From Lachnospiraceae bacterium (GTDB lineage: Bacteria; Bacillota; Clostridia; Lachnospirales; Lachnospiraceae): a DNA stretch of 48,392 nt. Location of the stretch: assembly GCA_017405805.1 (NCBI GenBank), contig JAFQZU010000033.1, positions 1 to 48,392 of the forward strand, read 5' to 3'. Made by a program: the position numbers and the translations under genes. Below the pieces are notes generated by a model. The model saw nothing but the letters and a program-made list of their open reading frames with translations. It was not told the DNA's origin and did no database searches. Within the stretch, counting starts at the first letter, position 1. Each line of letters opens with the position of its first letter. Below are positions 5,074-48,392 of this stretch, one piece after another.

Positions 5074-7643
5074 GATTTAAGCGATTCCACCATATCGATC
5101 TTCTGAATGGAAAAGAAAGAGAAGAAGTTGACAGAAAGCGAAAAGACCGCCGTGAGCAGGACCGCGTACAGATAGCTTCTTACGTGCAGCCCTCTCCCGA
5201 AGATCAGATAGTCCACTTCGATCGTGCCGATCAGCCACCGGTGCAGGCCCTTTCCCGCAGCCATGCCGATCAGTGCCCCGATCAGCGTCAGGATGATATT
5301 CTCCCTGTACACATAGGAAGCCGTCTCCATGTCGTAGAATCCCAGCACCTTCAGGGTGGCCAGTTCCCGGATCCGCTCCGTGACATTGATGTTTGTCAGA
5401 TTAAAGAGCACGAGGAAGGCCAGCATGGCCGCCGCGCCGATGATGATGAGCACGACGGCGTCCAGGCTCCGCATGCTGTCCTCGAAGCGCTGCCGCAGCT
5501 CGTCGATCCTGCTGTATGTCAGGACGCCCCTGATCGAAGTGATCCTTTCGGCGGCTTTTCCGCTGTCGGCGCCCTCCCGCAGACGCAAGAGGAGCGTGTT
5601 GTCGGATGACCGCTCTCCGAACACGGTCTTGTACATGCCGGCCGTCATGAAGACCTGATGGTTTACGTAGTTTTCCGCCACGTCGCCGACTCTGACCGGA
5701 TGCTCCTCCTCCCTGGCGTCTACCAGCATGATCGTGTCGCCGGGCTGAACATGCAGGAGTTCGCTCATCTTTTCGTCGATGATTATGCTGTCCTGTGCGG
5801 GTCTCAGTTCCGGGGGAGGCTCTATTTTTCTGTAGCGGAGCGTGCCCCCGGACCGCGGATACAGATGGATGTACTGCCCGGTCTTCTCCCAGTCGGAGGA
5901 GACCGTCAGAGATACGTTGTCCAGCGTTCCCTCGCTGTTTCTGACGCTGAGGGTCCCCAGATAGCAGCCCGCAAAGGATTCCACGTCCGGATCCTCCTCG
6001 AGTTCCTTTTCCAGGAAGATCCGCTCCGACTGCGTCAGGTCCTCACTGATGGACACGTCGGCATTGTAGACCATAAGATCGTCGAACTGCCAGCGCAGCA
6101 CGTCAAAAATCGAATCCCGCAGACCAAATCCGGTCACCAGAAGCGCCGTGCATCCGGCAATGCCCGCGATCGTCATCCAGAAACGTTTCTTGTAGCGAAA
6201 CAGGTTTCTGGCGCTTACCTTCTGGATAAAGGAAAGCCTCTTCCATATAGGAGCGATCCGTTCCAGCAGGATCCTTTTGCCGGGACGCGGCGCGCGCGGG
6301 CGAAGCAGGACAGCCGGATTGGACCGCAGGGTCGTGTAGCAGGCCGCCAGGGCCGCGCCCGCTGTCGCAAGGACCGCGAAACCGAGCGAATAGAGGGCCA
6401 CCGGGAGCGAGATCGTCCACTTGAGGGGCGGCAGGAGGTACAGGATGCCCCACTCGTAATAGATGAGGGACGGCAATGCCGCACATCCGATGAGGAGCCC
6501 GGCTCCGCCTCCCAGGAGGCTCGAACCCAGCGAGTAGCCCAGATATTTGACGGAGACCGCCGCATCGGAAAACCCCAGCGCCTTGAGCGAGCCGATCTCC
6601 GAGCGGTGCTCCTCTACCATTCGCGTCATGGATGTGAGGGAGCTCAGCGCCGCCACGAGGAAAAAGACCAGCGGAAAGACATCCGCCAGATTGCTCATGC
6701 GCTCCGCGTCGGAGGAAAACTCCACATAACTGCGGATGCTCTCTCTGCTCAGCAGATACCACTTGCCGGACGGAATATCGACGGCGGACAGATCGCCCGT
6801 GATCATCTGGGTGAGCATATCCGTCAGACTCGTCTCCCGCAGGATCTGGTCGTGCCTGTGTGACGCGCGCTCTTTGGCGAGGGGCTTCAGCCGCTCTATA
6901 AACGCATCCACGCGCTCCGTATAAGCATCATCCAGGTAGCAGTTGTACTGCGAAAGCCCCTCCAGCTCGAGATAGATGGAGGAATAATAATCCTGCGTAA
7001 AGCACGCCCCGGGAATCGCCACAAACCCCGTGACGGAACCACTCCCCACCTCCGAGTTTCCCCTCGTGCGCGAGATGTAGAGCGGGCTGTGGACCATCCC
7101 CACGATCGTAAACGTGTGCTGCCTGAGCAGATCCTGTCCCGTGGAGCTCTCGTAGGATTCGCTCGTGTCCACCGTTATGGTGTCCCCGATCTTCAGGTCC
7201 AGGGCTTCCAGCACTTTCTCCTCCGTGACGCACTCCGAATCCTTCTCCGGCATCCTTCCCTCCTGCAAATCCAGAAGATTAAGGGTCTGCGGCAGGGAGA
7301 ATACCGTGACGGTCTCTTCTCCCGCCAGCGCATCAAAAGAAAAGCTCCCTTCGGCCGCCTGCACGCCCTCCACTTTCTGGAGCGCCTGCAGGTCGTCCTC
7401 CGTGAGCCCGAGACTTGACACCACTCTGATGTCCATAAAACGAAGCCTGTCGTAATACAGGTCCACCGTCCGCTGCATATCCGGCGCCGTCATGCGCAGT
7501 CCCGAAAGAAAGCCTACCGCCAGAAAACTCATGACGAACAGGGACATAAATCGCTTGAAGGTGCGGCGCACCTCACGCAGCATATCGGTGAGAAGCCTGT
7601 TCGGACGTCCCGTGACGGCTCCGCCTGCGGCTCCTCTTACCAT
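5064..7643 (-). CDS. ABC transporter permease, FtsX/MacB type
   Basis: An 859-residue membrane subunit of a MacB/LolCE-like exporter. A short N-terminal cytoplasmic stretch leads into TM1 (about 33-50), then a large extracellular domain, a three-helix FtsX domain with the cytoplasmic EEHRSEIGSLKALGFSDAAV loop, and a second extracellular domain. A second FtsX domain near the C-terminus has the matching TERIRELATLKVLGFYD loop. Its ATG overlaps the ATPase stop by seven bases (7637-7643), with GAGGAGAT as ribosome site inside the ATPase gene, so the two are translationally coupled. Substrate is unknown; such systems export peptides or lipids or transmit force across the membrane. Co-transcription with a PBP suggests a cell-envelope role (inference). 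Confidence 0.9.
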   Translation of the reverse strand: MVRGAAGGAVTGRPNRLLTDMLREVRRTFKRFMSLFVMSFLAVGFLSGLRMTAPDMQRTVDLYYDRLRFMDIRVVSSLGLTEDDLQALQKVEGVQAAEGSFSFDALAGEETVTVFSLPQTLNLLDLQEGRMPEKDSECVTEEKVLEALDLKIGDTITVDTSESYESSTGQDLLRQHTFTIVGMVHSPLYISRTRGNSEVGSGSVTGFVAIPGACFTQDYYSSIYLELEGLSQYNCYLDDAYTERVDAFIERLKPLAKERASHRHDQILRETSLTDMLTQMITGDLSAVDIPSGKWYLLSRESIRSYVEFSSDAERMSNLADVFPLVFFLVAALSSLTSMTRMVEEHRSEIGSLKALGFSDAAVSVKYLGYSLGSSLLGGGAGLLIGCAALPSLIYYEWGILYLLPPLKWTISLPVALYSLGFAVLATAGAALAACYTTLRSNPAVLLRPRAPRPGKRILLERIAPIWKRLSFIQKVSARNLFRYKKRFWMTIAGIAGCTALLVTGFGLRDSIFDVLRWQFDDLMVYNADVSISEDLTQSERIFLEKELEEDPDVESFAGCYLGTLSVRNSEGTLDNVSLTVSSDWEKTGQYIHLYPRSGGTLRYRKIEPPPELRPAQDSIIIDEKMSELLHVQPGDTIMLVDAREEEHPVRVGDVAENYVNHQVFMTAGMYKTVFGERSSDNTLLLRLREGADSGKAAERITSIRGVLTYSRIDELRQRFEDSMRSLDAVVLIIIGAAAMLAFLVLFNLTNINVTERIRELATLKVLGFYDMETASYVYRENIILTLIGALIGMAAGKGLHRWLIGTIEVDYLIFGRGLHVRSYLYAVLLTAVFSLSVNFFSFFSIQKIDMVESLKSVE

Positions 7644-8341
7644 TCGATCTCCTCTACGGGAACTGGATTTGCATTTTGCTCGACGCCTGCCGCCTTCCCG
7701 TTGCGGATATGGATCACGCGGTCCGCCATGGGCGTAAGCGCGAGGTTGTGGGTGATCACAATGACTGTCATCCCTCTCTTTCTGCACATATCCCACAAGA
7801 GGGAAAGGATCTGCTTGCCCGTTATATAATCGAGCGCCCCCGTGGGTTCGTCGCACAAGAGCAGGGCGGGATTTTTGGCGATGGCGCGCGCAATGGCAAT
7901 GCGCTGCTGTTCCCCTCCCGACAGCTGTCCGGGGAAATTGTTCATTCTGTCAGCCAGTCCCACGTCCGCGACTGTCTGCGCGGCATCCAGGGGATCCCTG
8001 CAGATCTGCGCGGCCAGTTCCACGTTCTCGATCGCCGTCAGGTTCTGCACCAGATTGTAGAACTGGAAGACAAAGCCGATCTCTTCTCTTCTGTACCGCG
8101 TGAGCTGACGCCTGTCATAGCGGCTGATCTCCCGCCCGTTTACGATGATCGTTCCCGAGGTGCATGCGTCCATACCCCCGAGCATATTCAGGATCGTCGT
8201 CTTGCCGGCGCCGCTGGGGCCGACGATCACGACGAATTCTCCCTTCGCGATGGTGAAGGAGGCGCCGTCTACGGCGCGTATCTTCACTTCTCCCATGGAG
8301 TATTCTTTCGTGACATTGTCAAAAGTTATAAATTCACTCAT
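7637..8341 (-). CDS. ABC transporter ATP-binding protein, MacB/LolD type
   Basis: A 234-residue ATPase subunit. Walker A is GPSGAGKTT (41-49), the Q-loop falls in [18 protein letters not shown], the signature is [14 protein letters not shown] (from 140), and Walker B is [12 protein letters not shown] (160-171), followed by the H-loop VITHN. These are typical of the MacB/LolD/FtsE group that pairs with FtsX-type permeases, and such a permease follows with a seven-base overlap. Its ATG overlaps the stop of the upstream penicillin-binding protein as ATGA (8338-8341), an unusual and tight link between a peptidoglycan synthase and an ABC exporter. Confidence 0.93.
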
Positions 8342-11133
8342 CCCTGAATGGCAGCCTCTGTGGAATTGGAGCCGGATTCCGTTTTGGTTCCGATCTCATT
8401 GCTGGATGCACTGCTGTCGTTTCCGCCGCCGCTGTCGCCGCCGGCATCCGCGCTGCTGCCTTCGCTTCCGCCTCCGCCGGTCTCGCCGCCTTCACTTCCG
8501 CCTCCGCCGGTCTCGCCGCCTTCGTTTCCTCCGCCGGTCTCGCCGCCTTCGTTTCCGCCGCCGCCGGTCTCGCCGCCTTCGTTTCCGCCTCCGCCGGTCT
8601 CGCCGCCTTCGTTTCCGCCTCCGCCGGGCTCGCCGCCTTCGTTTCCGCCGCCGGACTCACCGCCTTCGTTTCCGCCGCCGGTCTCACCGCCTTCATTTCC
8701 GCCGCCGGGCTCACTGCCCTGGTTTCCGCCTCCGCCGGGCTCACTGCCCTGGTTTCCGCCTCCGCCGGGCTCACTGCTCTCGTTTCCGCCCCCACCGGGC
8801 TCGCTGCTCTCGTTTCCGCCTCCGCCGGGCTCGCTGCTCTCGTTTCCGCCGCCGGACTCATTGCCCTGGTTTCCGCCGCTCTCACTGGTGTTTCCGCCGC
8901 TGCTGCCACTCTTGCCGCCGCTGCTGCTGCCGCTCTTTTTGCCGCCGCTGCTGCCGTTCTTTTTGCCGCCGCTGCTGCCCGGCTCGACTGCCGGCGTCGG
9001 TTCCACTACAGGAGGCACTACAGGCTGCACTTCCGCAGGCTTCTGCTCCGGCTTCTTCTCTTCTTCATCGTCCCAGTCATCCCAGTCGTCGTCATCGTCA
9101 TCATACAGTTTGTCCTCTTCCGTATGATCGTAGTCGGGGAAATCCACGGGGGCGAGTCCCTCATGGAGTTTTTCCATGTAGGAGCGCCAGATGCCGCCGG
9201 GATAGGTCGCACCCTGCAGATTCCTGACCGTCTCGGGCGTATCGCATCCCACCCAGACGACGGTCGTGAAATAATGCGTAAATCCGCAGAACCATCCGTC
9301 CTTGAAATCATCCGTGGTACCCGTCTTGCCTGCGCAGGGCATCCCGCCCGACAGACGGAGACCGCGGCCTGTGCCCCAGGGCTCCTCAAAGACGCCCTTG
9401 AGCACGTTCACCATCATCCGGTCCGCATTCTTCTGATAGACCCGCTTTGCGTAGTCCTCCGGAATATATACCACTTCGTCCGAGAAATTCCGGATGTAGC
9501 GGATACAGGTCGGCCTGCGGAAGAATCCGTCATACTGAAGCGTGGCGTAAGCCGAAGCCATCTCGACAGGCTCCACGCCGTGCGTAAAGCCGCCCAGTGC
9601 CGTCGCCAGCACATTGTCGGAATCGCAGATATGATGGAATTCCATATCCTTGAGGTATTTGAGTCCGACCTGCGGGGTCACGTCCTCGTAAACCTGCCAT
9701 GCCACTGTATTAAGTGAGCGCTGGACCGCTTCCTGCAGCTCCAGTTCTCCCATATATCCTCCGCCGTAGTTGGAGGGGCCGTTTTCGATCTCCTGGTCCT
9801 CCACTTCGGTCTTGGGAAAATATCCGTGCTCAAAAGCGGGCGTGTAGACGACGAGCGGCTTGATGCAGCTTCCGGGCTGCCTTCTCATCTGGAAAGCCCT
9901 GTTGAGGGTCAGGCCGGCCTCCAGTTCCGAGGTCCTTCCGCCCACCATCGCCACGACCGCGCCGGTACTGTTGTCGATACAGACCGAAGCACCCTGCATT
10001 TTATATTTGCCCTGGTCATCTATGTCCGTAAAGGAGGCAAGTCCTTCGTCCACGCTCTCCTGCAGCATAGCCTGCTTGTCCATGTCAAAAGTCGTATAGA
10101 TCTTATAGCCTCCGGTGTAGAGCTTGGCCTCGCACTCCGAATAAACTTCGTTGTAGCTCTCCTCGTAGGCCGCTTTGTCGTCGTCCGAAGCAAAATCATA
10201 CCGCAGCTCGAACCCCTGCATCTGCATGAGCGCTTCCGTCGCGCAGTGATAGGTATAAGAGACGATATAATTGTTCTCCAGGACCCTGTAATTGCTGTTG
10301 TCGGAAAGATCCAGCACGATCTGTTCCGCCACGGCCGCATCGTGGTCGGTCTGGGAGATCACGCCGTCCTGCAGCATATTGTCGAGGATCAGGTCACGCC
10401 TTGTCAGCGTGTTTTCCATATTTACGATCGGATCGTAATAGGTCGGGCTGTTGGGTATGGCGCACAAAAAAGCCACCTGGGAGACATCCAGGTCCGCGGC
10501 GTGCCGATTGAAATACCCCTCGCTGGCGGCCTCGATCCCGTAGTACCCGTTTGCGAAATAAATGTTGTTGAGGTAGAACTCCATGATCTGCTTCTTGGAG
10601 TACTTCTTTTCGAGATTCTGGGCAATGAAGATCTCCTTGACCTTTCGTCTCCAGCTGACTTCATTGGTCAGGAAGATTCCTCTGGAAAGCTGCATGGTAA
10701 TGGTACTGCCGCCCTGCGTGATCCTTCTCTTCGCGATCAGCTCCTTGGCCGCTCTCATGATGGCGCGGTAATCGACGCCGTGATGCTCCATGAATTTCTT
10801 GTCCTCGATGCTCATCATGGTCTTGGTGAAGACCTCCGGGATCTCATCGTACAGAAGATAGGTGGAGTCCTTCTCCGCCCTCGTCTCAGAGATCAGATTG
10901 TCCGCGGCATCGTATATCTCGCCGGTCTGGGAAGGGACAAAATCCTCCGGTGTGGATTCCGCCACAAGCCTGTCGGCGTCCTGCTTCATCGCCTTGATCT
11001 CAGCGTAATATCCGCCAAAATAAAAGACTCCCACGAGTCCCAGGCATATGATCAGGAACATAAGGAGCAGGGTCTTCAGGATGAGACCTGCCATGCTCGT
11101 TTTCTTGCGTTTATTTCTCTTTTTTGCGGCCAT
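8338..11133 (-). CDS. Class A penicillin-binding protein (PBP1A-like) with Gly-rich repeat tail
   Basis: A 931-residue bifunctional peptidoglycan synthase. A Lys/Arg-rich cytoplasmic start is followed by one TM (about 16-40). The glycosyltransferase-51 domain has IEDKKFMEHHGVD (catalytic Glu110) and GGSTITMQ (141-148). The transpeptidase domain has SCIK (S422, K425), SLN (473-475) and KTGT (603-606). From about residue 675 the protein turns into an Asp-rich stretch, a Pro/Val linker and roughly 200 residues of Gly-rich repeats (GGGNEGGE, GGGNESSEP) with no further domain. The ATG at 11133 has AGAGGTG as ribosome site; the frame runs 53 codons further upstream into the promoter and a repeat. 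It is the first gene of an operon with the ABC genes, joined by ATGA. Confidence 0.95.
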   Translation of the reverse strand: MAAKKRNKRKKTSMAGLILKTLLLMFLIICLGLVGVFYFGGYYAEIKAMKQDADRLVAESTPEDFVPSQTGEIYDAADNLISETRAEKDSTYLLYDEIPEVFTKTMMSIEDKKFMEHHGVDYRAIMRAAKELIAKRRITQGGSTITMQLSRGIFLTNEVSWRRKVKEIFIAQNLEKKYSKKQIMEFYLNNIYFANGYYGIEAASEGYFNRHAADLDVSQVAFLCAIPNSPTYYDPIVNMENTLTRRDLILDNMLQDGVISQTDHDAAVAEQIVLDLSDNSNYRVLENNYIVSYTYHCATEALMQMQGFELRYDFASDDDKAAYEESYNEVYSECEAKLYTGGYKIYTTFDMDKQAMLQESVDEGLASFTDIDDQGKYKMQGASVCIDNSTGAVVAMVGGRTSELEAGLTLNRAFQMRRQPGSCIKPLVVYTPAFEHGYFPKTEVEDQEIENGPSNYGGGYMGELELQEAVQRSLNTVAWQVYEDVTPQVGLKYLKDMEFHHICDSDNVLATALGGFTHGVEPVEMASAYATLQYDGFFRRPTCIRYIRNFSDEVVYIPEDYAKRVYQKNADRMMVNVLKGVFEEPWGTGRGLRLSGGMPCAGKTGTTDDFKDGWFCGFTHYFTTVVWVGCDTPETVRNLQGATYPGGIWRSYMEKLHEGLAPVDFPDYDHTEEDKLYDDDDDDWDDWDDEEEKKPEQKPAEVQPVVPPVVEPTPAVEPGSSGGKKNGSSGGKKSGSSSGGKSGSSGGNTSESGGNQGNESGGGNESSEPGGGGNESSEPGGGGNESSEPGGGGNQGSEPGGGGNQGSEPGGGNEGGETGGGNEGGESGGGNEGGEPGGGGNEGGETGGGGNEGGETGGGGNEGGETGGGNEGGETGGGGSEGGETGGGGSEGSSADAGGDSGGGNDSSASSNEIGTKTESGSNSTEAAIQG
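8450..8985 (-). repeat. In-frame Gly-rich minisatellite encoding the PBP tail
   Basis: Roughly 24- to 30-base units, variants of a GGC-GGA-GGC-GGA-AAC-GAA theme, repeat about 15 times and encode G/N/E/S/T-rich blocks. Neighbouring units differ by only a few bases, a sign of recent slippage or recombination. Copy number is likely to vary between strains. Confidence 0.85.
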
Positions 11134-37010: not shown

Positions 37011-40000
37011 ATGCAAATCAAGGAATTCGATTAAGTACTCGTCGCCAACCGCGGCGAGATCGCGATCCGCGTCTTCCGGGCCTGCTATGACCTCGGCCTC
37101 AAGACCGTCGCGGTCTATTCCAATGAAGACACCAACGGACTGTTCCGCACGAAGGCGGACGAAGCTTACCTGATCGGCAAGAACAAGAGCCCTCTGGGCG
37201 CTTATCTGGATATCGCCGAGATCGTCGATCTCGCAAAAAGGCGCGGCGTATCCGCGATCCATCCCGGATACGGTTTCCTTTCCGAGAACGCTGATTTTGC
37301 CGCGGCGTGCGAGAAGGCCGGCATCAAATTCATCGGCCCCTCCTCGAAGGTCCTGGGCCAGATGGGCGACAAGCTCAGCGCCAAGGAGATCGCCATCGGC
37401 TGCAATGTCCCAATCATCCCCGGCTGCACCGAGCCTCTGAAGGATGCGGACGAAGCCGTCGCCATGGCGGAGGAATTCGAGTATCCCGTGATCCTGAAAG
37501 CCGCGGCAGGCGGCGGCGGACGCGGCATGCGCCGCTGCAACACTGCCGAGGAGGTCCGCATCAATTTTGACCTGGTCCAGAACGAGGCCAAAAAGGCCTT
37601 CGGCAACGGCGACATATTCATGGAGAAGTTCCTTGTGGAGCCCAAGCACATCGAGGTGCAGATCCTGGCAGACCAGTACGGCAACGTCATGCATCTGGGC
37701 GAGCGCGACTGCTCCCTGCAGCGCCGCTATCAGAAAGTCGTCGAGTTTGCGCCCGCCTGGTCCGTTCCCGAGATCACGAGGGAAGCACTCCATCGCGACG
37801 CCGTCAAGATCGCGCAGGCGGTCGGCTATGTCAACGCCGGAACCGTCGAGTTCCTGGTGGATACTAAGACCAATAAGCACTACTTCATCGAGATGAACCC
37901 CCGGATCCAGGTCGAGCACACCGTCACGGAGATGATCACCGGCATCGACCTCGTGCGCGCCCAGATCCTGATCGCCGAGGGCTATCCGCTCTCCGATCCC
38001 GCCATCGGCCTGCGCTGCCAGGAGGATCTGCGGATCAACGGCTACGCCATTCAGTGCCGTGTAACGACCGAGGATCCCACCAACAATTTCGCCCCCGATA
38101 CCGGAAAGATCACGGCCTATCGCGCAGGCGGCGGCTTCGGCGTGCGTCTGGACGGCGGCAACGCGGAGACCGGCGCGGTCATCTCTCCCTATTACGACTC
38201 CCTGCTGGTCAAGATCACCTGCCAGGACAACACCTTCCCGGGCGTCTGCAAGAAGGCCAGCCGCGCCATCAATGAGGTGCATATCCGCGGCGTGAAGACG
38301 AATATTCCTTTCGTCACTAAGATCCTGAACCACCCGCTGTTCATCTCCGGACTCTGCCACACCAAGTTCATCGACGACACGCCGGAGCTGTTCGACATCC
38401 AGATGAGCCGCGACAGGGCGACGCGCGTACTCAAATACATCGCGAACATCCAGGTGAACGAGCCCAATACCGAGCGTCACCAGTACGACACGCCCCGCTT
38501 CCCCCAGCCTTCCGGCAAGCCTCTCACCGGCCTCAAGTACATGATGGACAAGGAGGGGCCCAAGGCGGTCAGCAACTGGGTCCTTTCCCAGAAAAAACTC
38601 CTTGTGACGGACACCACTATGCGCGACGCCCACCAGTCGCTCCTCTCCACCAGAATGAGAAGCCGCGACATGATCAAGGGCGCCGACGGCACGGCCGATA
38701 TCCTTCGGGACTGCTTCTCTCTGGAGATGTGGGGCGGCGCTACTTTTGACGTGGCGTACCGGTTCCTGCGCGAATCTCCCTGGGAGAGACTGGACCTTCT
38801 GCGCGAGAAGATTCCGAATGTCATGTTCCAGATGCTGCTGCGCGGCTCCAACGCCATCGGCTATTCGAACTATCCCGACAATCTGGTCCGCGAATTCATC
38901 AAGGAGGCGGCAAGGAGCGGCATCGACGTCTTCCGCGTATTTGACTCTCTGAACTGGATCCAGGGCATGGAAGTCGCCATGGACGAGGTCCTGAACCAGA
39001 ACAAGCTCCTGGAAGCGACCATGTGCTACACGGGCGATATCATGGATCCCAAGCACGATCGCTACACACTGGAATATTACGTCAATATGGCGAAGGAGCT
39101 GGAGCGCCGCGGCGCCCACACCCTCGCGATCAAGGATATGGCGGGCCTTCTGAAGCCCTATGCGGCCAAGAAGCTGATCAGCACGCTTAAACAGGAGATC
39201 GGCATCCCGATCCACCTTCATACGCACGACACCACCTCCAACCAGATCGCCACATACCTGATGGCTGCCGAGGCGGGCGTGGACATCGTGGATACCGCCA
39301 TTTCGTCTCTGTCCGGCCTTACCTCCCAGCCTTCCATGAATGCGCTGGTGGCCGCCCTGCAGGGAACGGAGCGCGATACGGGCATGGACCTCGACGAACT
39401 GCAGAAGCTCACCGATTACTGGGGCGACGTGCGGCTGCGCTACGAGAAGTTCGATCACGGCCTCAAATACTCTGCCACGGACATCTACAAGTATGAGATC
39501 CCCGGCGGCCAGTACACCAACCTGGAGCCGCAGGTCGTCTCCCTCGGTCTCGGAAACCGCTTCTCCGAGGTCAAGGAAATGTACGCGAAAGTTAACACGA
39601 TGCTGGGCGATATCGTGAAGGTCACGCCTTCCTCCAAGATGGTCGGCGACATGGCCATCTTCATGGTCCAGAACGACCTCACGCCCGAGAATATCCTCGA
39701 AAAGGGCGCCGACCTGTCCTATCCCGACTCGGTCGTCTCCTACTTCAAGGGCATGATGGGCCAGCCCGCATGGGGCTTCCCGGAGGATCTCCAGAAGATC
39801 GTCCTCAAGGGCGAGAAGCCCATCACCTGCAGGCCCGGCGAGCTGCTTGATCCCGTCGATTTCGACAAGGTCCGCAAGGAAGTGGCGGAATTCCTGGATG
39901 AGAGCCAGATCGACATGCGCTCGCTCATCTCCTACAGCCTCTATCCGAAGGTATACGAGGACTACTGCCGCCACGACAAGGAGTTCGGCTACCTGATGCG

Positions 40001-40442
40001 TATGGGCTCCCACGTCTTCTTCAACGGCATGGCGCTGGGCGAGACCAACCAGATCAACATCGAGGACGGCAAAACACTGGTCATCAAGTACATCGGCCTG
40101 GGCGACCTCAACGAGGACGGCACCCGCAATGTGCACTTCGAGCTGAACGGTCAGAGAAGAGACGTCGCCGTACCGGATCCCAGTGCGGTCAGCAGCACTA
40201 AGCAGGTCGTCATCGCTGATCCTTCGGATCTGAGCCAGATCGGCGCGCCGATCCCCGGCCTGATCACCACGATCAACTGCAAGAAGGGCGACAAGGTCAA
40301 GAAGAACGACGTCGTCGCCGTCATCGAGGCCATGAAGATGGAGACCTCCGTCTCGGCGCCTATGGACGGCGTGATCGATGAAGTGCTTGTCAGTGAGGCT
40401 TCGCAGGTGCAGGCTGGAGAACTCTTGATCAAAATGGAGTAA
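37011..40442 (+). CDS. pyc: Pyruvate carboxylase with an in-frame TAA at codon 8 (possible recent pseudogene)
   Basis: Carboxylates pyruvate to oxaloacetate using biotin. From the well-placed ATG at 37011 (AGGAGG seven bases upstream) the frame reads MQIKEFD-stop-VLVANRGEIAIR; TAA at 37032-37034 stands where relatives usually have Lys or Arg. After it the frame is intact for 1,135 codons. The biotin carboxylase domain has KAAAGGGGRGMR and EMNPRIQVEHTVTE; the carboxyltransferase domain has TMRDAHQSLLSTRMR, the carbamylated-lysine segment AIKDMAGLLKP and HLHTHDTTSNQ; the biotin site is EAMKMETS near the end. The first ATG after the stop is at 37362, which would lose about 117 residues including VLVANRGEIA. 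One A-to-T change in a Lys codon explains the stop. It may be a real inactivation, a sequence error, or bypassed. Confidence 0.85.
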
Positions 40443-40449
40443 AAAAAAT

Positions 40450-40610
40450 CTGTGTATAAGCACCTTGGAGGTCAACTGTGTATAAGCACCTTGGGCACGC
40501 GGACTAAAGTCCGCTAAAAGCCCTGCGGCTGCTTATACACAGCTGGTAGGGGGGGTTGCTTCCCTATACAGGATAGGGAGGTTTGCTTCCCTATACAGTT
40601 TTATACACAG
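40450..40610. repeat. Structured repeat, copy 1 (with nested arms)
   Basis: The 31-bp core (40493-40523, centre GCGGACTAAAGTCCGC) is framed by perfect 12-bp arms, CTGTGTATAAGC (40476-40487) and GCTTATACACAG (40531-40542). A second copy of the left arm with its linker begins at 40450 (19-bp direct repeat with 40476), and TTATACACAG recurs at 40601-40610. Between lie two copies of TTGCTTCCCTATACAG (40556, 40583). It starts eight bases after the pyc stop and is inverted relative to copies 2 and 3. Confidence 0.85.
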
Positions 40611-40649
40611 CATGCAACATCTATCAAAAATAATTTGACAGACTTTTAC

Positions 40650-40730
40650 AAAAAAAGTCCCCGTATATAGGTGTCCAAGGGCTTTTAGCGGACTTTAGTC
40701 CGCGTGCCCAGGACACCTATATACGGGGAC
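40650..40730 (-). terminator. Structured repeat, copy 2, acting as terminator of the SLOG-SLATT-like gene
   Basis: The same 31-bp core (40679-40709) sits between perfect 20-bp arms, GTCCCCGTATATAGGTGTCC (40657-40676) and its complement (40711-40730). On the minus strand seven Ts follow (A-run 40650-40656). It begins nine bases past the gene's stop. Arms differ entirely from those of copies 1 and 3. Confidence 0.85.
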
Positions 40731-40738
40731 AACCCCTA

Positions 40739-42379
40739 TCAGAGGCTGATATCCGGCTCATTCATACTCTGGAAAACATACCACGCACTATTCTCCCCCA
40801 GCGCCTCCTGCGCCAGCCGTTCCAGAATTTCCCGCGTCTCCCCCTCATATCCGATACTGCACTCCGCCTCTTCAAAGAGTGCCGCCATTTTTTTGTGATC
40901 CTCCGCATTCTGCGTCAGAGAAAGCTTGCCGTAGTAATTGCCGGCAAAAAGCGTTCCTGCAGAGAGACCTCCCAGAACGATCTTCAGGACAGTCCTAAAG
41001 AGCTCGATCCGTTCCGGGGACATCCGCGGGACCGCTCCCAGAAGTCCTGCCATTACGATTTCGAAGATCAAGGCCGCAATATAAGAGATGATCGCGGCGA
41101 TGAGCGCGATCCGTTCGATCCGCTCGTTGGTCTCATGCGCCTGCAGCGTCTTTTCCAGCGCGTTCCGGTGGTAGGTCTTCTGGTCCAGGATCCAGTCGTC
41201 CATCACAGATTTCGCCTCCGGGACGCTGTTCCCGATCATGACTGCCGCAGCCGCCTTTCGCACCCAGGGCAGGTGGATCTGCAGCGTCCAGGGGAGCTGC
41301 TCCGACACCTCGAAGGGGCATCCCGCCCTCCACATGTAAAACTGCACGCGCATCGCTTCCGCCAGCACACGGTACTCCGGATACTTTCTGTGACACTGCA
41401 GTCTCCCCTCGATCCGGTTGACCGCAAAAAGTGCCAGGATCATCAGTCCGCAGACCAGGATCATCCAGTACATCTCCGCCTCATCATACAGAAGGAAGGC
41501 GACGGTCACGACCGTGGCCGCCACAGACATAAAAGCCAGGACTTTCCGGTTTTGGGCCTGATTCTGAACGCTCATCGAATCGGCGGCCTTGTATATCCCG
41601 GAGATCCGCTCCGCAGTCCGCTCATTTTGCCCATGGACCCGCGTGCCTGCCAGATCATATCCCCCGTTTCCGCTCTGCAGCGCATCCCGGTTATATTCCT
41701 CCGTCCGCTCACAGAGCACGCGAAAAGCATTCCGGTCCCCAAGCCATATGACCTTGCCGGCCTCTTCGGGAGGCAGGGGTCCGGCCCCGCTGCGGGATGC
41801 CCGAATCTGCGCGACGGCGCCGTCCTCCGGATGAAGAAGGGAGCCGTTCACATCGCGGTACGCGTTCCAGAGCTTCATTTCCACGGTATCCGACGTGCCG
41901 CATCCGCCGGGCCTGCCGGCTTTTCCATCCCAGACCGCCATGAGGACATGGGAGTGCTGCACCAGATAAATATTCGCCTGCCTGTAGTGATATCTCCTGT
42001 CAGCCGCCGCATCATCCCCCGCTTCGTTCCTCTTCTCCGCATCGGGCGCGACCAGCACCGTCGCTGCTTCAGCCGTCAGCACACGCAGTTTTTCCAGTGC
42101 TTCTCCCTGAAAGTCCTTTTCGTACTCCTCATACGCCATAGGAAGGACCGCGGCCAGCGCATAGCCCTCCTTCAGCGCCTCTTCCGCGCACAGCTGGTCC
42201 GCCCCCTCCGCGAGGCAGGTCAGAAAGACATGGGGCGAATCCGGATACTGCGCCGCAAATTCACGCAGGAACCCTCTGACGCTCTCCCGGACCGCCTCTG
42301 ATTCCGCTTCATTCAGATGCCGGTGCCCGCTCTGCGCCACTACAAGCGGGATCCGCCTATCCTCTTTTCCCAAACTCAT
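40739..42379 (-). CDS. SLOG-like domain protein with four TM helices (SLATT-like effector)
   Basis: A 546-residue protein in two parts. Residues 9 to about 230 resemble the SLOG/LSDAT Rossmann fold, which binds nucleotide-derived ligands: PLVVAQSGHRHL (the GHR loop), FLTCLAEGADQLCAEEALKEG, and NIYLVQHSHVLMAVWDG. Residues 245-546 resemble a SLATT-type membrane module: helix pairs at 279-297/303-321 and 423-447/463-483, with amphipathic stretches (AEAMRVQFYMWRAG; LTQNAEDHKKMAALFEEAE) typical of these effectors. SLOG-SLATT combinations have been predicted as conflict systems in which a sensed nucleotide opens a membrane effector. No SMODS/CD-NTase gene is in the window. The gene lies below the helicase operon and between two direct repeat copies. 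The assignment is by motif and layout, not search. Confidence 0.72.
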   Translation of the reverse strand: MSLGKEDRRIPLVVAQSGHRHLNEAESEAVRESVRGFLREFAAQYPDSPHVFLTCLAEGADQLCAEEALKEGYALAAVLPMAYEEYEKDFQGEALEKLRVLTAEAATVLVAPDAEKRNEAGDDAAADRRYHYRQANIYLVQHSHVLMAVWDGKAGRPGGCGTSDTVEMKLWNAYRDVNGSLLHPEDGAVAQIRASRSGAGPLPPEEAGKVIWLGDRNAFRVLCERTEEYNRDALQSGNGGYDLAGTRVHGQNERTAERISGIYKAADSMSVQNQAQNRKVLAFMSVAATVVTVAFLLYDEAEMYWMILVCGLMILALFAVNRIEGRLQCHRKYPEYRVLAEAMRVQFYMWRAGCPFEVSEQLPWTLQIHLPWVRKAAAAVMIGNSVPEAKSVMDDWILDQKTYHRNALEKTLQAHETNERIERIALIAAIISYIAALIFEIVMAGLLGAVPRMSPERIELFRTVLKIVLGGLSAGTLFAGNYYGKLSLTQNAEDHKKMAALFEEAECSIGYEGETREILERLAQEALGENSAWYVFQSMNEPDISL

Positions 42380-42395
42380 CTATACTTCTCCTTCT

Positions 42396-42538
42396 GCCTT
42401 AGCCATGTATAAGCAGCCGCAGGGCTTTCAAGCTCTATGCCTTAGCCATGTATAAGCAACCGCAGGGCTTTTAGCGGACTTTAGTCCGCGTGCCCAAGGT
42501 GCTTATACATGGCTCCTCCAAGGTGCTTATACATGGCT
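42396..42538. repeat. Structured repeat, copy 3 (with nested arms)
   Basis: The identical 31-bp core (42465-42495) lies between arms AGCCATGTATAAGC (42444-42457) and GCTTATACATGGCT (42501-42514). Each arm with its linker is duplicated outward: left at 42401-42414 (a repeat of about 32 bp with one change), right at 42525-42538. The right outer arm contains the helicase stop codon (42527-42529). It is in the same orientation as copy 2. Confidence 0.85.
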
Positions 42539-44755
42539 AATCCACTCCACCATCTCCTCCGTATCCAGCACCCCCAGCGCAAACCCTTTCCGCACCAGCT
42601 CCTCCGGCACATACGCATCGTACTTCTCAAAGATGGGATTCTCTTTGGGATACAGCAGCTCCATCGGATCCACGCCGGCCTCCGCCTCCTCTCTGAGGAT
42701 GCGGCGGAAGTCCTCTTCCGACACCTGCATGGTAAACTGCATATAGTATGGCCTCGAGGCGGTAAGCCCCTTCAGGCCCAACTTCTTAGCGCAGCGGATC
42801 TTCAGAAAGCGCTCCAGGGCGAGGAAGGCATAACTCCCCAGCCAGGGGAAGAGCGCCCACATTTTGCCGCCCAGGTGGATCAGCGAGTGCGTCTCCATGC
42901 CGGATTTTGCGAACGTCTGCCGCGCGTCACGGAGTCTGCTGACCGCATGCCGCATCAGGTATGGATAGTTTCTGTCCTCCTTCAGGACGCCGTACATGCG
43001 CTGCAGGATCCGCGTGTGGATGTCGCCGGCCACATCGCCAAAATAAGCCGGTATATTTCCCTTCACCAGCGCGCAGTAAACCTGTCTCCGCTTGTGGTCG
43101 ACCTCTTCCACCACCCAGACTCTGCCGGCGATGGCGATTTTGTCGCCGACCGGCGGCGGCTTTACGATGGTGCCCAGCTCCTCGGAGCCCGCGTGCACCG
43201 CGTATTCGATATTCTCCTGAAAAACAGCGTAGAACTTATAATTATTGACTATCCGCTCGCCGGCTATGCCGAGAATGAGACCGTCATTCTCTGTTTTGTT
43301 CACGTGATCGATCTCCAGCAGGTGACGCAGCAGCAGGCGGAAATCATCCTGCGTGATCCTGTGAAAATAGGAGAGGGGCAGGACGCGGGAAGCCAGTTCG
43401 CGCGGCGTCATCTCCCCGCAGGAGGCCAGGGTGCTCATGGTCTGGTGGTAGAGCAGGCTGAAGGGGAGCCGGTCCGTTCTGGGCGGCTCGACGAAGCGCT
43501 CCTCGATGTAGAGCTGAATGAGGGCAATCCCCTGGATCAGGTACCACGGGATCAGTGCCGGCAGCATGGCGCGCGCCTCCGGATGGTCCTCCCGCATGAC
43601 GAACCACATCTCGGAAGGATCTCCCCGGCGGCCTGTGCGGCCCATGCGCTGCAAAAAGCCCGAGACCGTGAAGGGCGCGTCGATCTGGAAGGCCCGCTCC
43701 AGCCTCCCGATGTCGATCCCCAATTCCAGCGTGGCGGTGGCGCACACACTGATCAGCGCGTCATCGTCCTTCATCTCCTCCTCCGCGCTCTCTCTGTAGG
43801 AGGCCGAGAGATTGCCGTGGTGGATGAGGAACCGGTCCGGCTCATGCCGGAGTTCACAGTACTGCCGCAGGTTCTGGCAGACTGCTTCGCACTCCTCCCT
43901 GGAGTTGGTGAAGATCAGGCACTTCTTTCCCCTCGTATGCTCGAAAATGTATCCCACGCCGGGATCTGCCGCCTCCGGCGCTGTATCGGTGGGTTCCTCC
44001 GGCACGGGCGTCTGCGGAAGGCTGTCATCCGGTCTGTTCTCGCCCGCCTGCGGCGCCGAGTTGTAGAAGTGTTCCATGGACAGGCGCCACACTTCTTTTC
44101 CCCCCTCAAACTTTGGGATCACGGTCCCCCGGCCGCTTCCTGCCGCGAGAAACCGTCCCGCCTCCTCCGGCTTTCCGATGGTGGCGGACAGGCCGATCCT
44201 CCTGGGACTGCAGCCCGCCAGAGCGCACAGGCGCTCGATCAGGCAGAAGGTCTGCCCGCCGCGGTCTGCCCTGAGCAGGGAGTGGATCTCGTCGATCACG
44301 ATAAAACGCAGATCCCCGAACAGGGACGGAATCTCCATGTGCTTGTTGATCATGAGGGATTCCAGTGATTCCGGGGTGATCTGCAGGATCCCGGAGGGCT
44401 TCTTCATAAGCCTTCTCTTGCTGGTCTGCGAGGCGTCCCCGTGCCATTTCGTGACTTTGATGCCTGCCTCCTCGCACAGCTCCTCCAGCCTCCCGAACTG
44501 ATCGTTGATCAGCGCCTTGAGCGGCGCGATATAGAGGACGCCTACCGTCCTGGAGGGCTCCTCGTCCAGAAGCGTGAGGATGGGGAAGAAGGCGGCCTCT
44601 GTTTTGCCGGAGGCGGTGGAGGCCGTCAGGAGCACATTCTCCTGCGTGCCGAAGATCGTGTCGCCGGCAGCGTTCTGCACGCCCCGCAGGGACTGCCAGC
44701 CGGAGCGGTAGATAAAATCCTGGATAAAGGGCGCATAGCGGTCAAATACATCCAT
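42527..44755 (-). CDS. Lhr/BrxHI-like DEAD/DEAH helicase
   Basis: A 742-residue superfamily-2 helicase. Motif I is TASTASGKTEAAF, Ia is YIAPLKALINDQ, TPESLESL follows, motif II is VIDEIHSLL (DEIH), motif III is GLSATIG, and motif VI is LQRMGRTGRRG. A C-terminal region of about 330 residues has the Lhr-type AGRVWVVEEVDHKRRQVYC beta domain. The frame starts at 44791, but TGAGGTTTTT before the ATG at 44755 and the ATPase stop at 44763 favour the later start. ATPase/helicase pairs of this kind (BrxD-BrxHI) occur in type 2 BREX; here the third gene is TerB-like instead. The last codons and stop are supplied by a repeat arm. Confidence 0.9.
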   Translation of the reverse strand: MDVFDRYAPFIQDFIYRSGWQSLRGVQNAAGDTIFGTQENVLLTASTASGKTEAAFFPILTLLDEEPSRTVGVLYIAPLKALINDQFGRLEELCEEAGIKVTKWHGDASQTSKRRLMKKPSGILQITPESLESLMINKHMEIPSLFGDLRFIVIDEIHSLLRADRGGQTFCLIERLCALAGCSPRRIGLSATIGKPEEAGRFLAAGSGRGTVIPKFEGGKEVWRLSMEHFYNSAPQAGENRPDDSLPQTPVPEEPTDTAPEAADPGVGYIFEHTRGKKCLIFTNSREECEAVCQNLRQYCELRHEPDRFLIHHGNLSASYRESAEEEMKDDDALISVCATATLELGIDIGRLERAFQIDAPFTVSGFLQRMGRTGRRGDPSEMWFVMREDHPEARAMLPALIPWYLIQGIALIQLYIEERFVEPPRTDRLPFSLLYHQTMSTLASCGEMTPRELASRVLPLSYFHRITQDDFRLLLRHLLEIDHVNKTENDGLILGIAGERIVNNYKFYAVFQENIEYAVHAGSEELGTIVKPPPVGDKIAIAGRVWVVEEVDHKRRQVYCALVKGNIPAYFGDVAGDIHTRILQRMYGVLKEDRNYPYLMRHAVSRLRDARQTFAKSGMETHSLIHLGGKMWALFPWLGSYAFLALERFLKIRCAKKLGLKGLTASRPYYMQFTMQVSEEDFRRILREEAEAGVDPMELLYPKENPIFEKYDAYVPEELVRKGFALGVLDTEEMVEWISHV

Positions 44756-44762
44756 AAAAACC

Positions 44763-46094
44763 TCATATCGTGAATTCTGCAAAGTTGTCATCCGCCTTGT
44801 CGGAGACCGCCTCCGATTTGGTGAAGGCGAACTCGTCCGACTGCAGCAGCTCCTCCATGTTCAGGGAAGGATTCTGGTAAAGAAGATCCAGCAGCTCGAT
44901 AAAATCCCGTATCACTTCCCTGGGCGTGATATTCTGGTCCGCGCCGATCCGGCCGTACTCGATCTTTATGAAGGCCGCGAGCTCCTGTGTGCCTATGTGC
45001 TGCGCATACCCGTAGAGGCCCGCATGCATGGCCGCCAGTTTTTCGCACAGGACCAGCATCTCCTCTGCCGTGAGGGGCTCCAGACGGATGACCGGCGCCA
45101 TCAGGTCCCTGGCGCCCGGCCGGGAGAACTTGCCCTCCGCCAGGCGGGACCGCAGTGCCTCATAGCTGTAGACGCCCCTTCGTTTGTCCTCCAGGGCCTG
45201 CGGGGTCGCCCCCATGATGATGCCCAGATACCTGGCTTTTCCCTGGAGGGTATCGTTGTACATGGTCAGCATTTTCTCGTAGTTGTACTGGCGCGTGATG
45301 GAGTTGGGGATCTTGCTGATATTCACCAGCTCGTCGATCAGGATCATCATGCCGGCGTATCCGGCCAGGCGGAAGAAGACCGCGAACAGCTTCAGATACT
45401 CGTACCAGTCGTCGTCCGTGATGATGATATTGACGCCCAGTTCCTCCTTGGCCTCTCTCTTGAGCGTGTACTCGCCGCGGAACCACCGGACGACCCTGGC
45501 CGCCGTCTCGTCGTCTCCCTCCACGTAGGCGTGGTAATAGGCCGACAGGAGTTTTGCGAACTCAAAGCCGTGCACCAGCTCGCTCAGGGAAGACGTCACG
45601 GCATAGATCTTCTGATCCACAGCCTGCGTCAGGACCGGTTCGCCGGGCCGGGCCCCCGTCTCCTGCGCCGCTTCGCTCTGTACGCTGTTGATCCACCTGT
45701 CCAGCACCAGTTTTAACGCGCCGCCCTCCGGCTTCGTCTTCGTGCTCAGATTCCCGATCAGTTCCCTGTAGGTGGCAAGTCCCTGCCCCCTCGTACCCTG
45801 CAGTCTCCTCTCGGGCGACAGATCCGCGTCCGCCACGACAAAACCTCTGTCCATCACATAATTGCGGATCGTCTGCAGAAGAAAGCTCTTTCCCGAGCCG
45901 TATCGTCCCACGATGAAGCGGAAGGAAGCCCCGCCCTCCGTCATGATGTCCACGTCGTGCAAAAGCGCCTCGATCTCATTTTTTCTGCCGACTGCAATAT
46001 AGGGGAGCCCGATCCTGGGCACTACGCCTCCCTTCAGGGAATTGAGTACCGTCTGGGCGATCCTTTTCGGTACCTTTTTGTTGTCACCGTTCAT
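44763..46094 (-). CDS. BrxC/BrxD-like (DUF2791) P-loop ATPase
   Basis: A 443-residue ATPase. The N-terminal segment RIAQTVLNSLKGGVVPRIGLPYIAVGRKNEI leads into Walker A, VGRYGSGKSF, and then a FVVADADLSPERRLQGTRGQGLATYRELIGNLS segment typical of DUF2791/BrxD. Walker B is MMILIDELVNIS (IDE), followed by a sensor region, LGIIMGATPQAL. The frame is open 10 codons further up, but AGAGGAAGCAAAT fits the ATG at 46094. It lies seven bases before the helicase start and 54 bases after the TerB-like gene. In BREX the homologue works with the Lhr-like helicase; its action is not settled. Confidence 0.88.
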   Translation of the reverse strand: MNGDNKKVPKRIAQTVLNSLKGGVVPRIGLPYIAVGRKNEIEALLHDVDIMTEGGASFRFIVGRYGSGKSFLLQTIRNYVMDRGFVVADADLSPERRLQGTRGQGLATYRELIGNLSTKTKPEGGALKLVLDRWINSVQSEAAQETGARPGEPVLTQAVDQKIYAVTSSLSELVHGFEFAKLLSAYYHAYVEGDDETAARVVRWFRGEYTLKREAKEELGVNIIITDDDWYEYLKLFAVFFRLAGYAGMMILIDELVNISKIPNSITRQYNYEKMLTMYNDTLQGKARYLGIIMGATPQALEDKRRGVYSYEALRSRLAEGKFSRPGARDLMAPVIRLEPLTAEEMLVLCEKLAAMHAGLYGYAQHIGTQELAAFIKIEYGRIGADQNITPREVIRDFIELLDLLYQNPSLNMEELLQSDEFAFTKSEAVSDKADDNFAEFTI

Positions 46095-46148
46095 ATTTGC
46101 TTCCTCTCTCCTTCTACACGCCATAAGCGCCGGAACCGCCTTGCTCCG

Positions 46149-48098
46149 TCATCCCATTAACGCCTCCAGATCCGCCCGGTAGTCCTCCACGATGGTCAGG
46201 CGGTCATTGTCACATTCCACCACGCTGTCCCCGAACTCGTCGAACAGTGCCTCGTTGATGGCGTCCGCCACCACGGAGGGCATGAGGAAGGCCTCCCTCA
46301 TGATCGCATCTGCCGGTCCGTCCTCTAAAAGAGCGCGGAGGATCCGCCGCTGCACAGGGTCGAGCACATTGTCTGATTGCAGGTCTCCGGCAGGGCCGGC
46401 CTCCTGCACGGGATCATCCTTCTCAGGCTCTTTCTCAGGCTCCGCGCCGGACAATACAGTTTCTGCCTCTTCGCTCCTCTCCTCCTTTGTCAGAAGACTC
46501 TCGCGCGTTAAGGCGGCGTCGCTCCGGATCCTGTCCAGCCCCGTAAAATCAATGGTCACCGCCGTCCTGGCAGCCTCCTCTTTCACTTTTTCTTCTTCGA
46601 TCACCGCCTCGGCATAAGGCGTGACCCAGGCCTCCTCCTCTTTCTTTTTCAGATAGTGGCCCGTATTAAAATATTTGCGCAGAAGCCTCTCTGTCTCATG
46701 CACCAGCGCACGGAGCGGGGCTTTATCGAAGAACAGGTCCTCATACCGTTCCTCCTGCCAGATCACGCCTCTGCGGATATATCTCCGACAGGCGTTCAGG
46801 ACATACTCCACGTCCTCCGGCCTGCTCCTGTCCCAATACACCGCGTTGCCCAGAGGGCTCCAGGGAAAGACCCTCTTTTTGTCGAAGCAGGCGGCAAAAA
46901 GATCTTCTCCCTTTGCTTTCTGCCCCTCTTCCGCTTTCCGATAGACCTGTGCGAACAGTCTCTTTGCCCGTTCCCCCTCCTTTTTGACCGCCGTGGAATC
47001 GCCAAGCCTTTTCCCCGTCCAGAAACACATCGCCTCATAGATCTCCTCATCGGTATGGTCCTGCGGGCCGCGGAGGACCTCGATGGCGGCGTCTCTTTTC
47101 ATCGTTTCCGGATCGGCATACCTGCGCGCCGTCTCAAGGGGCAGACCGCAGCACACGCAAAAATCCGTCATCCACCGCCTGAGGTTCTTTGCAAGTATCT
47201 CATCCCCGTAACCGGCGCCGAGATAGCGGGTCTCAAATTCCTGCATCCTTCGCAGGCGGTCTTCCGGATAGATCTCGCCGATCCCGTTGAGCAGCTCGTA
47301 GAGATAGATGTAGGCGAAGGCCGAGGCCGTTTTCCTGTACTCGCCCTTTCTGACTTGCGTTCTCCAGGTAAAATACCCCCTGAGCTGCCGCACGTTCAGG
47401 TCATGATAGGTGGGAAAGTACATCTGCAGATCCGTTTCCCAGGGCAGGTCGTCCTCATAGTTTTCCATGGACATGCCCTGCAGGTAAAAATTCCTGCACC
47501 GGCTGCGGAAGGATCCGTCGCCCCGCTGATACAGGCGCATCATATCGCGGATCGGTTCAGGCACCATATCGTCCTGCCTGTCGCTCCGGATCCTTGCGGG
47601 AGGCTTTCTGTCCTGCTGCCTCCTGTCCTGCTGCCTCCTGAACTGATCCCGGGGCGGAAGCGCAGTATCCCGGTACACCTTCTCCGGCATGCCCTTCGTA
47701 AGTCCCTTTAATCCCGGAGACGGCGCTTTCTTCTCATCCAGCACGATGGTATAGCCGCGCTGGTCCCCGGAGCGCAGCGCCCGGTCAAAAAGAATATGCA
47801 CGATCTCCGGCTCCGTTTCCCTCGTAAACTGCACGCCGACCCACTTCTGTCCCTTCATGCGGAAAGGTCCGGAGAGATAGGGTCTTTTATACTCTTCCAG
47901 CGCCTGCCTTCCGCATTTTATGTCGCAGCGCTGAAGCTCCGTCCCGGTCTCCGAATCCCACTGGCGCATGAGGAGCGCCGCCCATTTCCCCGTGACCGGG
48001 TCGACCAGTACGGAGAAACCGGGAAACTCCTGCCATTTGTGATCCTCTGCGATATGATATTTTTCCTGTGCGTAAGCCGCAAGATCCGAAATCGTCAT
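46149..48098 (-). CDS. MmcQ/YjbR-TerB_N-TerB_C-like protein
   Basis: A 649-residue multidomain protein. Residues 1 to about 110 look MmcQ/YjbR-like (MTISDLAAYAQEKYHI, HKWQEFPGFSVLVDPVTGKWAALLM, CDIKCG, GVQFTRE), a fold linked to DNA binding. A basic Gln/Arg linker (RRQQDRRQQDRKPPARIR) follows, then a TerB_N-like region (FRSRCRNFYLQGMSMENYEDDLPW, FTWRTQVRKGEY, ASAFAYIYLYELLNGIG). The TerB_C-like end is DPVQRRILRALLEDGPADAIMREAFLMPSVVADAINEALFDEFGDSVVE. The frame is open to 48185, but a consensus promoter at 48153-48182 lies in that stretch, so the ATG at 48098 is the likely start, despite a weak ribosome site. It is the first gene of the TerB-ATPase-helicase operon. Confidence 0.8.
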   Translation of the reverse strand: MTISDLAAYAQEKYHIAEDHKWQEFPGFSVLVDPVTGKWAALLMRQWDSETGTELQRCDIKCGRQALEEYKRPYLSGPFRMKGQKWVGVQFTRETEPEIVHILFDRALRSGDQRGYTIVLDEKKAPSPGLKGLTKGMPEKVYRDTALPPRDQFRRQQDRRQQDRKPPARIRSDRQDDMVPEPIRDMMRLYQRGDGSFRSRCRNFYLQGMSMENYEDDLPWETDLQMYFPTYHDLNVRQLRGYFTWRTQVRKGEYRKTASAFAYIYLYELLNGIGEIYPEDRLRRMQEFETRYLGAGYGDEILAKNLRRWMTDFCVCCGLPLETARRYADPETMKRDAAIEVLRGPQDHTDEEIYEAMCFWTGKRLGDSTAVKKEGERAKRLFAQVYRKAEEGQKAKGEDLFAACFDKKRVFPWSPLGNAVYWDRSRPEDVEYVLNACRRYIRRGVIWQEERYEDLFFDKAPLRALVHETERLLRKYFNTGHYLKKKEEEAWVTPYAEAVIEEEKVKEEAARTAVTIDFTGLDRIRSDAALTRESLLTKEERSEEAETVLSGAEPEKEPEKDDPVQEAGPAGDLQSDNVLDPVQRRILRALLEDGPADAIMREAFLMPSVVADAINEALFDEFGDSVVECDNDRLTIVEDYRADLEALMG

Positions 48099-48152
48099 GT
48101 AATTTTCTTTTCTCAGGTCGAATTTGTGTTGAATCGGTGTCTTTGAACTTTT

Positions 48153-48182
48153 ATTATAATATATTTCGATGTACTCTGTCAT
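48153..48182 (-). promoter_or_regulatory. Promoter of the TerB-ATPase-helicase operon
   Basis: On the minus strand ATGACA (48177-48182), 18 bases, and a perfect TATAAT (48153-48158). It places transcription start about 50 bases before the ATG at 48098 and argues against the upstream start codons. Confidence 0.7.
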
Positions 48183-48306
48183 CACTTTTTCGAATATATG
48201 TTCTAAAAATCAATCGCCACCCGTCGTTCCTCCATAACGGGAAATGGGCTTAGTTGAGTGCTAAACTTAATTCCGCATTGCAGCAGTAAATTCCATGTAA
48301 GCGGAC

Positions 48307-48336
48307 TTTACCTCTGCACAGCTTTTCGGCTATACT
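48307..48336 (+). promoter_or_regulatory. Possible promoter of the gene entering at the right edge
   Basis: TTTACC (48307-48312), 18 bases, TATACT (48331-48336). An 8-bp hairpin, GCACAGGC (48337-48344) with GCCTGTGC (48358-48365), lies in the leader. Confidence 0.45.
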
Positions 48337-48381
48337 GCACAGGCTGATGATTGCCTTGCCTGTGCCAGAAAGAGAGGAACA

Positions 48382-48392
48382 ATGAGTACTCA
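48382..48392 (+). CDS. Start of a gene cut by the window edge
   Basis: ATGAGTACT follows AGAGAGG at 4-base spacing and the promoter above. Only three codons are visible, so the product cannot be named. Confidence 0.4.

Follow-up and report, generated by a model that had tools for sequence, protein, structure and literature searches.

The 48,392-nucleotide stretch of Lachnospiraceae DNA analysed here (the window) encodes the known anti-phage system Shango (sngABC), as an architectural variant with an MmcQ-type SngA. While Shango itself is already known, it is less ordinary to find an SngA protein that lacks a detectable TerB core and carries an N-terminal MmcQ/YjbR domain. The best explanation overall, to which we assign a probability of roughly 0.6, is an MmcQ subtype of Shango in which SngA would serve as recognition and adaptor subunit and SngB as a loader, with SngC blocking phage replication.

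The three genes form an operon of tightly spaced minus-strand open reading frames (ORFs) at 42527-48098, confirming the MmcQ-TerB protein, ATPase and helicase operon proposed there in a first-pass annotation of the same DNA. The features are as follows, in window coordinates:

46149 to 48098, minus strand: sngA, MmcQ/YjbR-TerB_N-TerB_C protein, 649 aa from ATG 48098
47736 to 48098, minus strand: SngA MmcQ/YjbR domain, a profile match, approximately residues 30-150 in the numbering of the 678-aa ORF
46980 to 47558, minus strand: TerB_N (PF13208), residues 210-402, Pfam 2.4e-19
46164 to 46595, minus strand: TerB_C (PF15615), residues 531-674, Pfam 1.3e-21
44763 to 46124, minus strand: sngB, BrxC/BrxD-type P-loop ATPase, 453 aa
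42527 to 44791, minus strand: sngC, Lhr/BrxHI-type SF2 helicase, 754 aa
48153 to 48182, minus strand: promoter-like site before sngA, ATGACA-18-TATAAT, a consensus match only
42395 to 42541, plus strand: dispersed-repeat cluster at the sngC end, with 12 genome matches to this stretch, itself included

The sngA reading frame is open from a GTG at 48185 (46149-48185, 678 aa); since several homologues start at ATG 48098 with MELSELTAYA or similar, the latter is the likely start. For sngB the likely start is a later ATG at 46094, nearer to the beginning of homologue matches (residues 5-18), and for sngC it is ATG 44755 (MDVFDRYAPF or equivalent), the position at which 12 of 16 homologue ORFs begin. 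Depending on the starts used, the sngA-sngB gap measures 24-54 bp, and the sngB-sngC junction ranges from a 29-bp overlap to a 7-bp gap. A sigma-70-like site (11/12 match) runs from 48182 to 48153, 55 nt before ATG 48098. Six such sites were found in 42300-48392, where 2.3 were expected over both strands, and this is the only one of the six on the minus strand. No terminator-like site was found after sngC on the minus strand. One repeat copy (42518-42541) contains the final four sense codons of sngC together with its stop; the repeat family is partly palindromic and is also present at 40450-40730, and the 12 matches to the cluster are spread over six contigs of the same genome.

The identification as Shango is based on PADLOC models and on the adjacency of the SngA, SngB and SngC homologues in Shango order. 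All three Shango models were matched over nearly their full length (SngA 2.7e-75, SngB 2.4e-188, SngC 1e-281). The described Shango systems are those of Pseudomonas aeruginosa PA14 and of E. coli, and phage tests have been made in Pseudomonas and E. coli (PMC10250203); in PAO1 it lowered plating 10-100-fold for many phages, not all (PMC10250203), and it has already been reported from rumen genomes by DefenseFinder (PMC13356809). Compared with that system via models and descriptions, the window has the same three genes in the same order and an ATPase and a helicase with intact motifs. SngB matches BrxC_BrxD (PF10923) at 9e-169 and retains GRYGSGKS at residue 73 and MILIDEL at residue 260, while SngC matches DEAD at 7.9e-30 and Helicase_C at 1.6e-18 and contains TASGKT, DEIH, SAT and QRMGRTGR; these matches bear out the earlier calls of a BrxC/BrxD-like ATPase and an Lhr/BrxHI-like helicase. 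The window differs from described Shango in its N-terminal MmcQ/YjbR domain and in having no detectable TerB core (PF05099), which is listed for Shango in PMC10952713. Since the PADLOC SngA model is still matched, the missing TerB core marks a variant and does not exclude the operon from Shango.

The operon also resembles type 2 BREX (Pgl), whose BrxD-BrxHI pair is a homologous and adjacent ATPase and helicase, and with which a loader-helicase logic is perhaps common (PMC12839542). One alternative reading is a BREX remnant or piece whose core has disappeared or is located past the end of the contig. The PF10923 match and the similarity to BrxHI (PADLOC 1.9e-124) are compatible with this; moreover, the window is a complete contig that ends at 48392, only 0.3 kb upstream of sngA, so that sequence beyond that point is unreadable, and the assembly is 84% complete. 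However, the Shango models outscore their BREX counterparts by hundreds of bits, both for the ATPase (SngB 625 bits versus BrxD 165, the latter with E 6.3e-49) and for the helicase (SngC 935 versus BrxHI 414). The ATPase reaches 167.5 bits against an NCBIfam BrxD cut-off of 350 (NF033438), and SngA matches none of the PADLOC BREX models. No PglZ was found in this 84% complete assembly, and among the 19 SngB-bearing genomes of the family only three have PglZ at E 0.001 (two over the cut-off), always on a contig other than that of SngB, these being draft assemblies. We rejected the BREX reading, which we consider extremely improbable, on the model scores and the missing PglZ. The first-pass annotation was therefore right to see a compact three-gene defence module related to the BrxD-BrxHI pair and to see no BREX core; its further proposal, that a TerB protein stands in for that core in a novel system, was rejected, as the set is the described and phage-tested Shango and a TerB core was not found.

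Shango has a patchy distribution. SngB is present in 19 of 200 genomes of the host family, Lachnospiraceae, and in 25 of 398 genomes of the phylum, the host being counted in both, and it has matches in 692 of the 72,556 plasmid records searched; 542 of these 692 are predicted to be conjugative, and BrxD relatives may be included in the count. Klebsiella contributes 449 of these 692 records and Salmonella 144, and the annotation of one Raoultella conjugative plasmid that we looked at shows all three genes in A-B-C order. SngB relatives with 78-86% identity are found in metagenome-assembled genomes (MAGs) labelled as other phyla, where binning errors are possible. A phage origin was rejected, since a search of 50,697 phage records at 1e-5 returned no SngB match.

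Gene order was followed in 98 loci, comprising 18 from the family and 80 named loci. The latter are the 80 most similar to the window SngB among 579 confirmed relatives and are thus biased towards close kin; their titles are MAG labels, which may be wrong, and two of them (L024 and L059) are apparently one contig. To these were added 20 phylum loci, from the 24 hits other than the host, and 10 plasmid loci picked from hit lists, most of them for an annotated TerB N-terminal protein. Gene calling identified SngB in 94 of the 98 loci (in L060, L095, L098 and L118 it was missed in the first gene calling and recovered by an ORF scan). SngA lies within four genes upstream of SngB in 84 of the 94, SngC within four genes downstream in 89, and both partners within four genes in 80, making A-B-C the usual order. 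An ORF scan recovered A, B and C together in 14 of the 18 family loci and in 72 of the 80 named ones. Identity to the window proteins is 49-83% for SngB (18 loci), 44-82% for SngC (16 loci) and 21-50% for SngA (14 loci), the most variable of the three. Judged by these values, the ATPase-helicase pair appears as the constant part of the system and SngA as the changing part. Such variability would fit a recognition subunit, but would equally fit mere looser constraint.

There are exceptions to this order. No SngA was found beside the SngB-SngC pair in five of the 98 loci (L026, L033, L087, L102 and L104); L104 is a 3.2-kb contig, and a very diverged SngA may have been missed. In L022 and L058 SngA is missing, wholly or mostly, at a contig edge, and L038 has SngB alone. 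The idea that other genes have replaced SngA in L090, L092 and L101 was dropped, as SngA is found there five genes upstream of SngB. In L102, where sngA was undetected, a gene directly upstream of sngB-sngC (7036-8886) has a CHAT match (1e-6) and a TPR match below its cut-off. In L034 (9390-11609) sngC is split into two ORFs, perhaps as a broken copy, and this locus was accordingly left out of the SngC alignment.

We then consider the neighbourhood of these operons. Of 102 neighbours listed in family loci, 20 were picked, and 17 of these gave no PADLOC hit at 1e-5; the remaining three are in L021, L027 and L028, that of L027 being UvrA-like by Pfam. Among the neighbours named by Pfam are a sulphate permease and a GGDEF-HD protein. 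As a raw count, 17 of 20 would speak against a strong defence-island setting in the host family. Further genes are nested within some of the operons themselves: two DNA methyltransferases (L039), an MmeI-like type IIG restriction enzyme (L090) and a RhuM-Fic gene (L040) lie between sngB and sngC, and L090, L092 and L101 share a four-gene insert between sngA and sngB that includes a DUF3990 gene (PADLOC PDC-M13B; scanned in L092, with near-identical sequence read in L090 and L101). A PD-(D/E)XK nuclease gene (L092) and Sel1-repeat genes (L090, L101) are likewise nested in Shango operons. Adjacency to defence genes, a check proposed at first pass, is seen as restriction-modification and candidate-defence genes inside some operons and not among most of the picked neighbours.

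These neighbours would suit a housekeeping DNA-repair or stress (Ter-type) operon with no role in defence, as would the ORF at 37362-40442 downstream in the window, which looks pyruvate carboxylase-like by eye. We nevertheless judge such a role improbable, given that SngB is confined to the fractions of family and phylum genomes stated above, that its matches extend to many plasmids (with the possible BrxD relatives among them), that closely similar SngBs occur in MAGs named for other phyla (binning errors again being possible), and that Shango protects against phages (PMC10250203). Taken with the nested defence genes, this patchy and plasmid-borne presence is not the picture of housekeeping contexts only that the first-pass annotation had set against its own proposal, even with 17 of 20 picked neighbours free of PADLOC hits.

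The distinguishing features of the variant lie in SngA. Taken alone, the window SngA matches YjbR (PF04237) with E 0.016 for its N-terminal piece and 0.097 for the whole protein, both under the Pfam cut-off, and no match to PF04237 at E 0.01 was found in its own genome. A profile of 29 SngA N-termini (the window and 28 relatives) matches PDB 2kfp/3h9x, the solved protein PSPTO_3016, with E 3.3e-12, and a 2kfp fragment in turn matches PF04237 at 6.2e-21. In addition, PF04237 is matched at E 0.01 or better by 14 of 61 SngAs, a set made up of the window and 60 chosen relatives, mostly full-length, from 90 SngA genes. At the level of sequence comparison, homology of the window N-terminus to solved YjbR proteins holds with the profile; the MmcQ call made at first pass thus failed on the single sequence and stood on the profile of N-termini. 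As for the label TerB-like, the flanking TerB_N and TerB_C domains are present and the TerB domain proper was not found.

By Pfam, the TerB core (PF05099) was detected in none of the 61 SngAs, the window's included, and in 8 of 10 plasmid-borne SngAs. The TerB-type SngAs sampled, in which the core sits between TerB_N and TerB_C, come from seven Pseudomonadota plasmids and one archaeal plasmid. A TerB-core HMM found the core in none of the 98 family and named loci, in 1 of the 20 from the phylum and in 8 of the 10 from plasmids; as this HMM was built from 8 of the 10 plasmid sequences that were then counted, Pfam provides the independent count. The two plasmid SngAs without a TerB core by HMM, one also by Pfam, are both from Paenibacillus. 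When the profiles of the two SngA sets were compared, the alignment covered 96 columns, all of them inside TerB_N, and the middle of SngA may hold a TerB-like fold too diverged for sequence detection. MmcQ was detected by HMM in the window, in 6 of the 18 family and 52 of the 80 named loci; none of the 20 phylum loci or the 10 plasmid loci gave a hit. Since 32 of the 90 loci with SngA have no MmcQ, the domain cannot be needed everywhere, although 6 of the 32 are cut by a contig edge, so that MmcQ may be undercounted there. The match to the PADLOC SngA model (528 positions) starts at residue 73, a position that falls in the MmcQ region, so that TerB-less or MmcQ-bearing members may already underlie that model. 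In one locus (L036, 10555-13221) the SngA frame is continuous with an N-terminal radical-SAM domain (PF04055, 1e-10); this may reflect a genuine fusion, or else a start site predicted too far upstream.

MmcQ/YjbR has a double-wing fold and is proposed to bind DNA, a proposal that rests on fold similarity (PMC7641849). Fusions such as MmcQ-EVE and MmcQ-TerB join it to defence-linked proteins, with MmcQ as the suggested DNA-recognition part, and the window SngA resembles them in this respect. The MmcQ-TerB fusion has already been mentioned in print (PMC7641849), but the available text does not place it in Shango; in the window, moreover, MmcQ is joined to TerB_N and TerB_C with no detectable TerB core. 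Our searches of the open literature, subscription papers lying mostly outside them, turned up neither a description of nor an experiment on a Shango of the MmcQ type or without TerB. Neither "Shango" nor "TerB" occurs in PMC12458937 and PMC12839542, two papers on helicases and BREX.

A tree of 128 SngB proteins was used to place these SngA types. The tree was made with a quick method, and long branches were flagged (for example L037, MmcQ, and L178, TerB). All 59 MmcQ rows fall inside one supported clade of 88, which holds a further 25 plain rows and 4 without usable SngA. The TerB-type rows, nine in number, also group together with support. The MmcQ label requires 20 changes on this tree, of which at least 6 are imposed by supported branches; when the labels are shuffled, the mean is 42.5. 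When the first 60 SngA residues were read by eye, four MmcQ-less proteins (L044, L053, L099 and L110) were seen to keep the first residues of the module followed directly by its TIVL-like end, and a fifth (L024) to keep the front end only; these retained ends are traces such as in-frame deletions would leave. From this we infer one gain of MmcQ followed by repeated loss; repeated gain may be the alternative. The tree also contains MmcQ-plus and MmcQ-minus sisters (L067 and L024; L086 and L110), which constitute a natural experiment.

How Shango works is given as unknown in a 2026 review (PMC12926258). The MmcQ/YjbR and TerB_N/TerB_C parts of SngA would find invading or replicating phage DNA, making SngA a combined recognition and adaptor subunit. 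The BrxD-like ATPase SngB would then load or license (or gate) SngC, by analogy with a published proposal in which BrxD loads or activates BrxHI in the manner of replicative helicase loaders (PMC12839542). SngC, an Lhr/BrxHI-like SF2 helicase placed in one clade with BrxHI, DruE and DpdJ (PMC12278908), would translocate on phage DNA and unwind or strip it, resulting in a replication block. Each functional step in this scheme, from DNA recognition by MmcQ to helicase loading and the block itself, is one that we infer. Since Pfam found no nuclease domain in the three proteins, interference, not cutting, would be the simplest outcome.

The same components could also act through abortive infection, in which an SngB-SngC pair triggered by SngA damages host DNA or replication and infected cells die. 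DruE, from the same helicase clade as SngC (PMC12278908), lends this some weight, since DruE and DruH block phage DNA circularisation and replication with abortive infection (PMC13316683). On the other side, no toxin domain was found by Pfam in SngA, SngB or SngC any more than a nuclease, and P. aeruginosa Shango generally protected liquid cultures (PMC10250203), which argues somewhat against simple suicide. On balance abortive infection seems to us rather unlikely, and direct interference with phage replication the better account.

A broader and more tentative proposal, which we hold at a little short of even odds, is that Shango is modular. Because the TerB core lies between TerB_N and TerB_C in TerB-type SngAs, one portion of SngA has the look of an interchangeable unit, and TerB_N/C, the ATPase and the helicase would then form a constant chassis that carries exchangeable SngA recognition modules, the TerB core being dispensable. 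In the MmcQ-holding clade, mostly from gut bacteria, a DNA-binding MmcQ would have taken the recognition role once, and several later in-frame deletions of it would then have altered recognition. Should the TerB core prove dispensable and MmcQ bind DNA, DNA recognition would be a better place to look for the Shango sensor than the sensing of tellurite or metal. The label of TerB-domain system does not apply to Shango in the lineage of the window.

Finally, some loci carry genes that might add an effector. Next downstream of sngC in the window, at 40739-42379, is a gene for a 546-aa protein with a weak mid-protein SLATT/DUF4231 match and an N-terminus that is SLOG-like by eye. It was rejected as a fourth Shango gene, having no relative in the 18 family loci at 1e-5. 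The gene is bracketed by 66-nt inverted repeats (40479-40544 and 42444-42509, 95% complementary) and is a candidate effector gene in a repeat-bounded stretch. In two Roseobacteraceae plasmids (L125 and L128), an annotated PD-(D/E)XK nuclease gene directly follows sngC and is a possible added effector.
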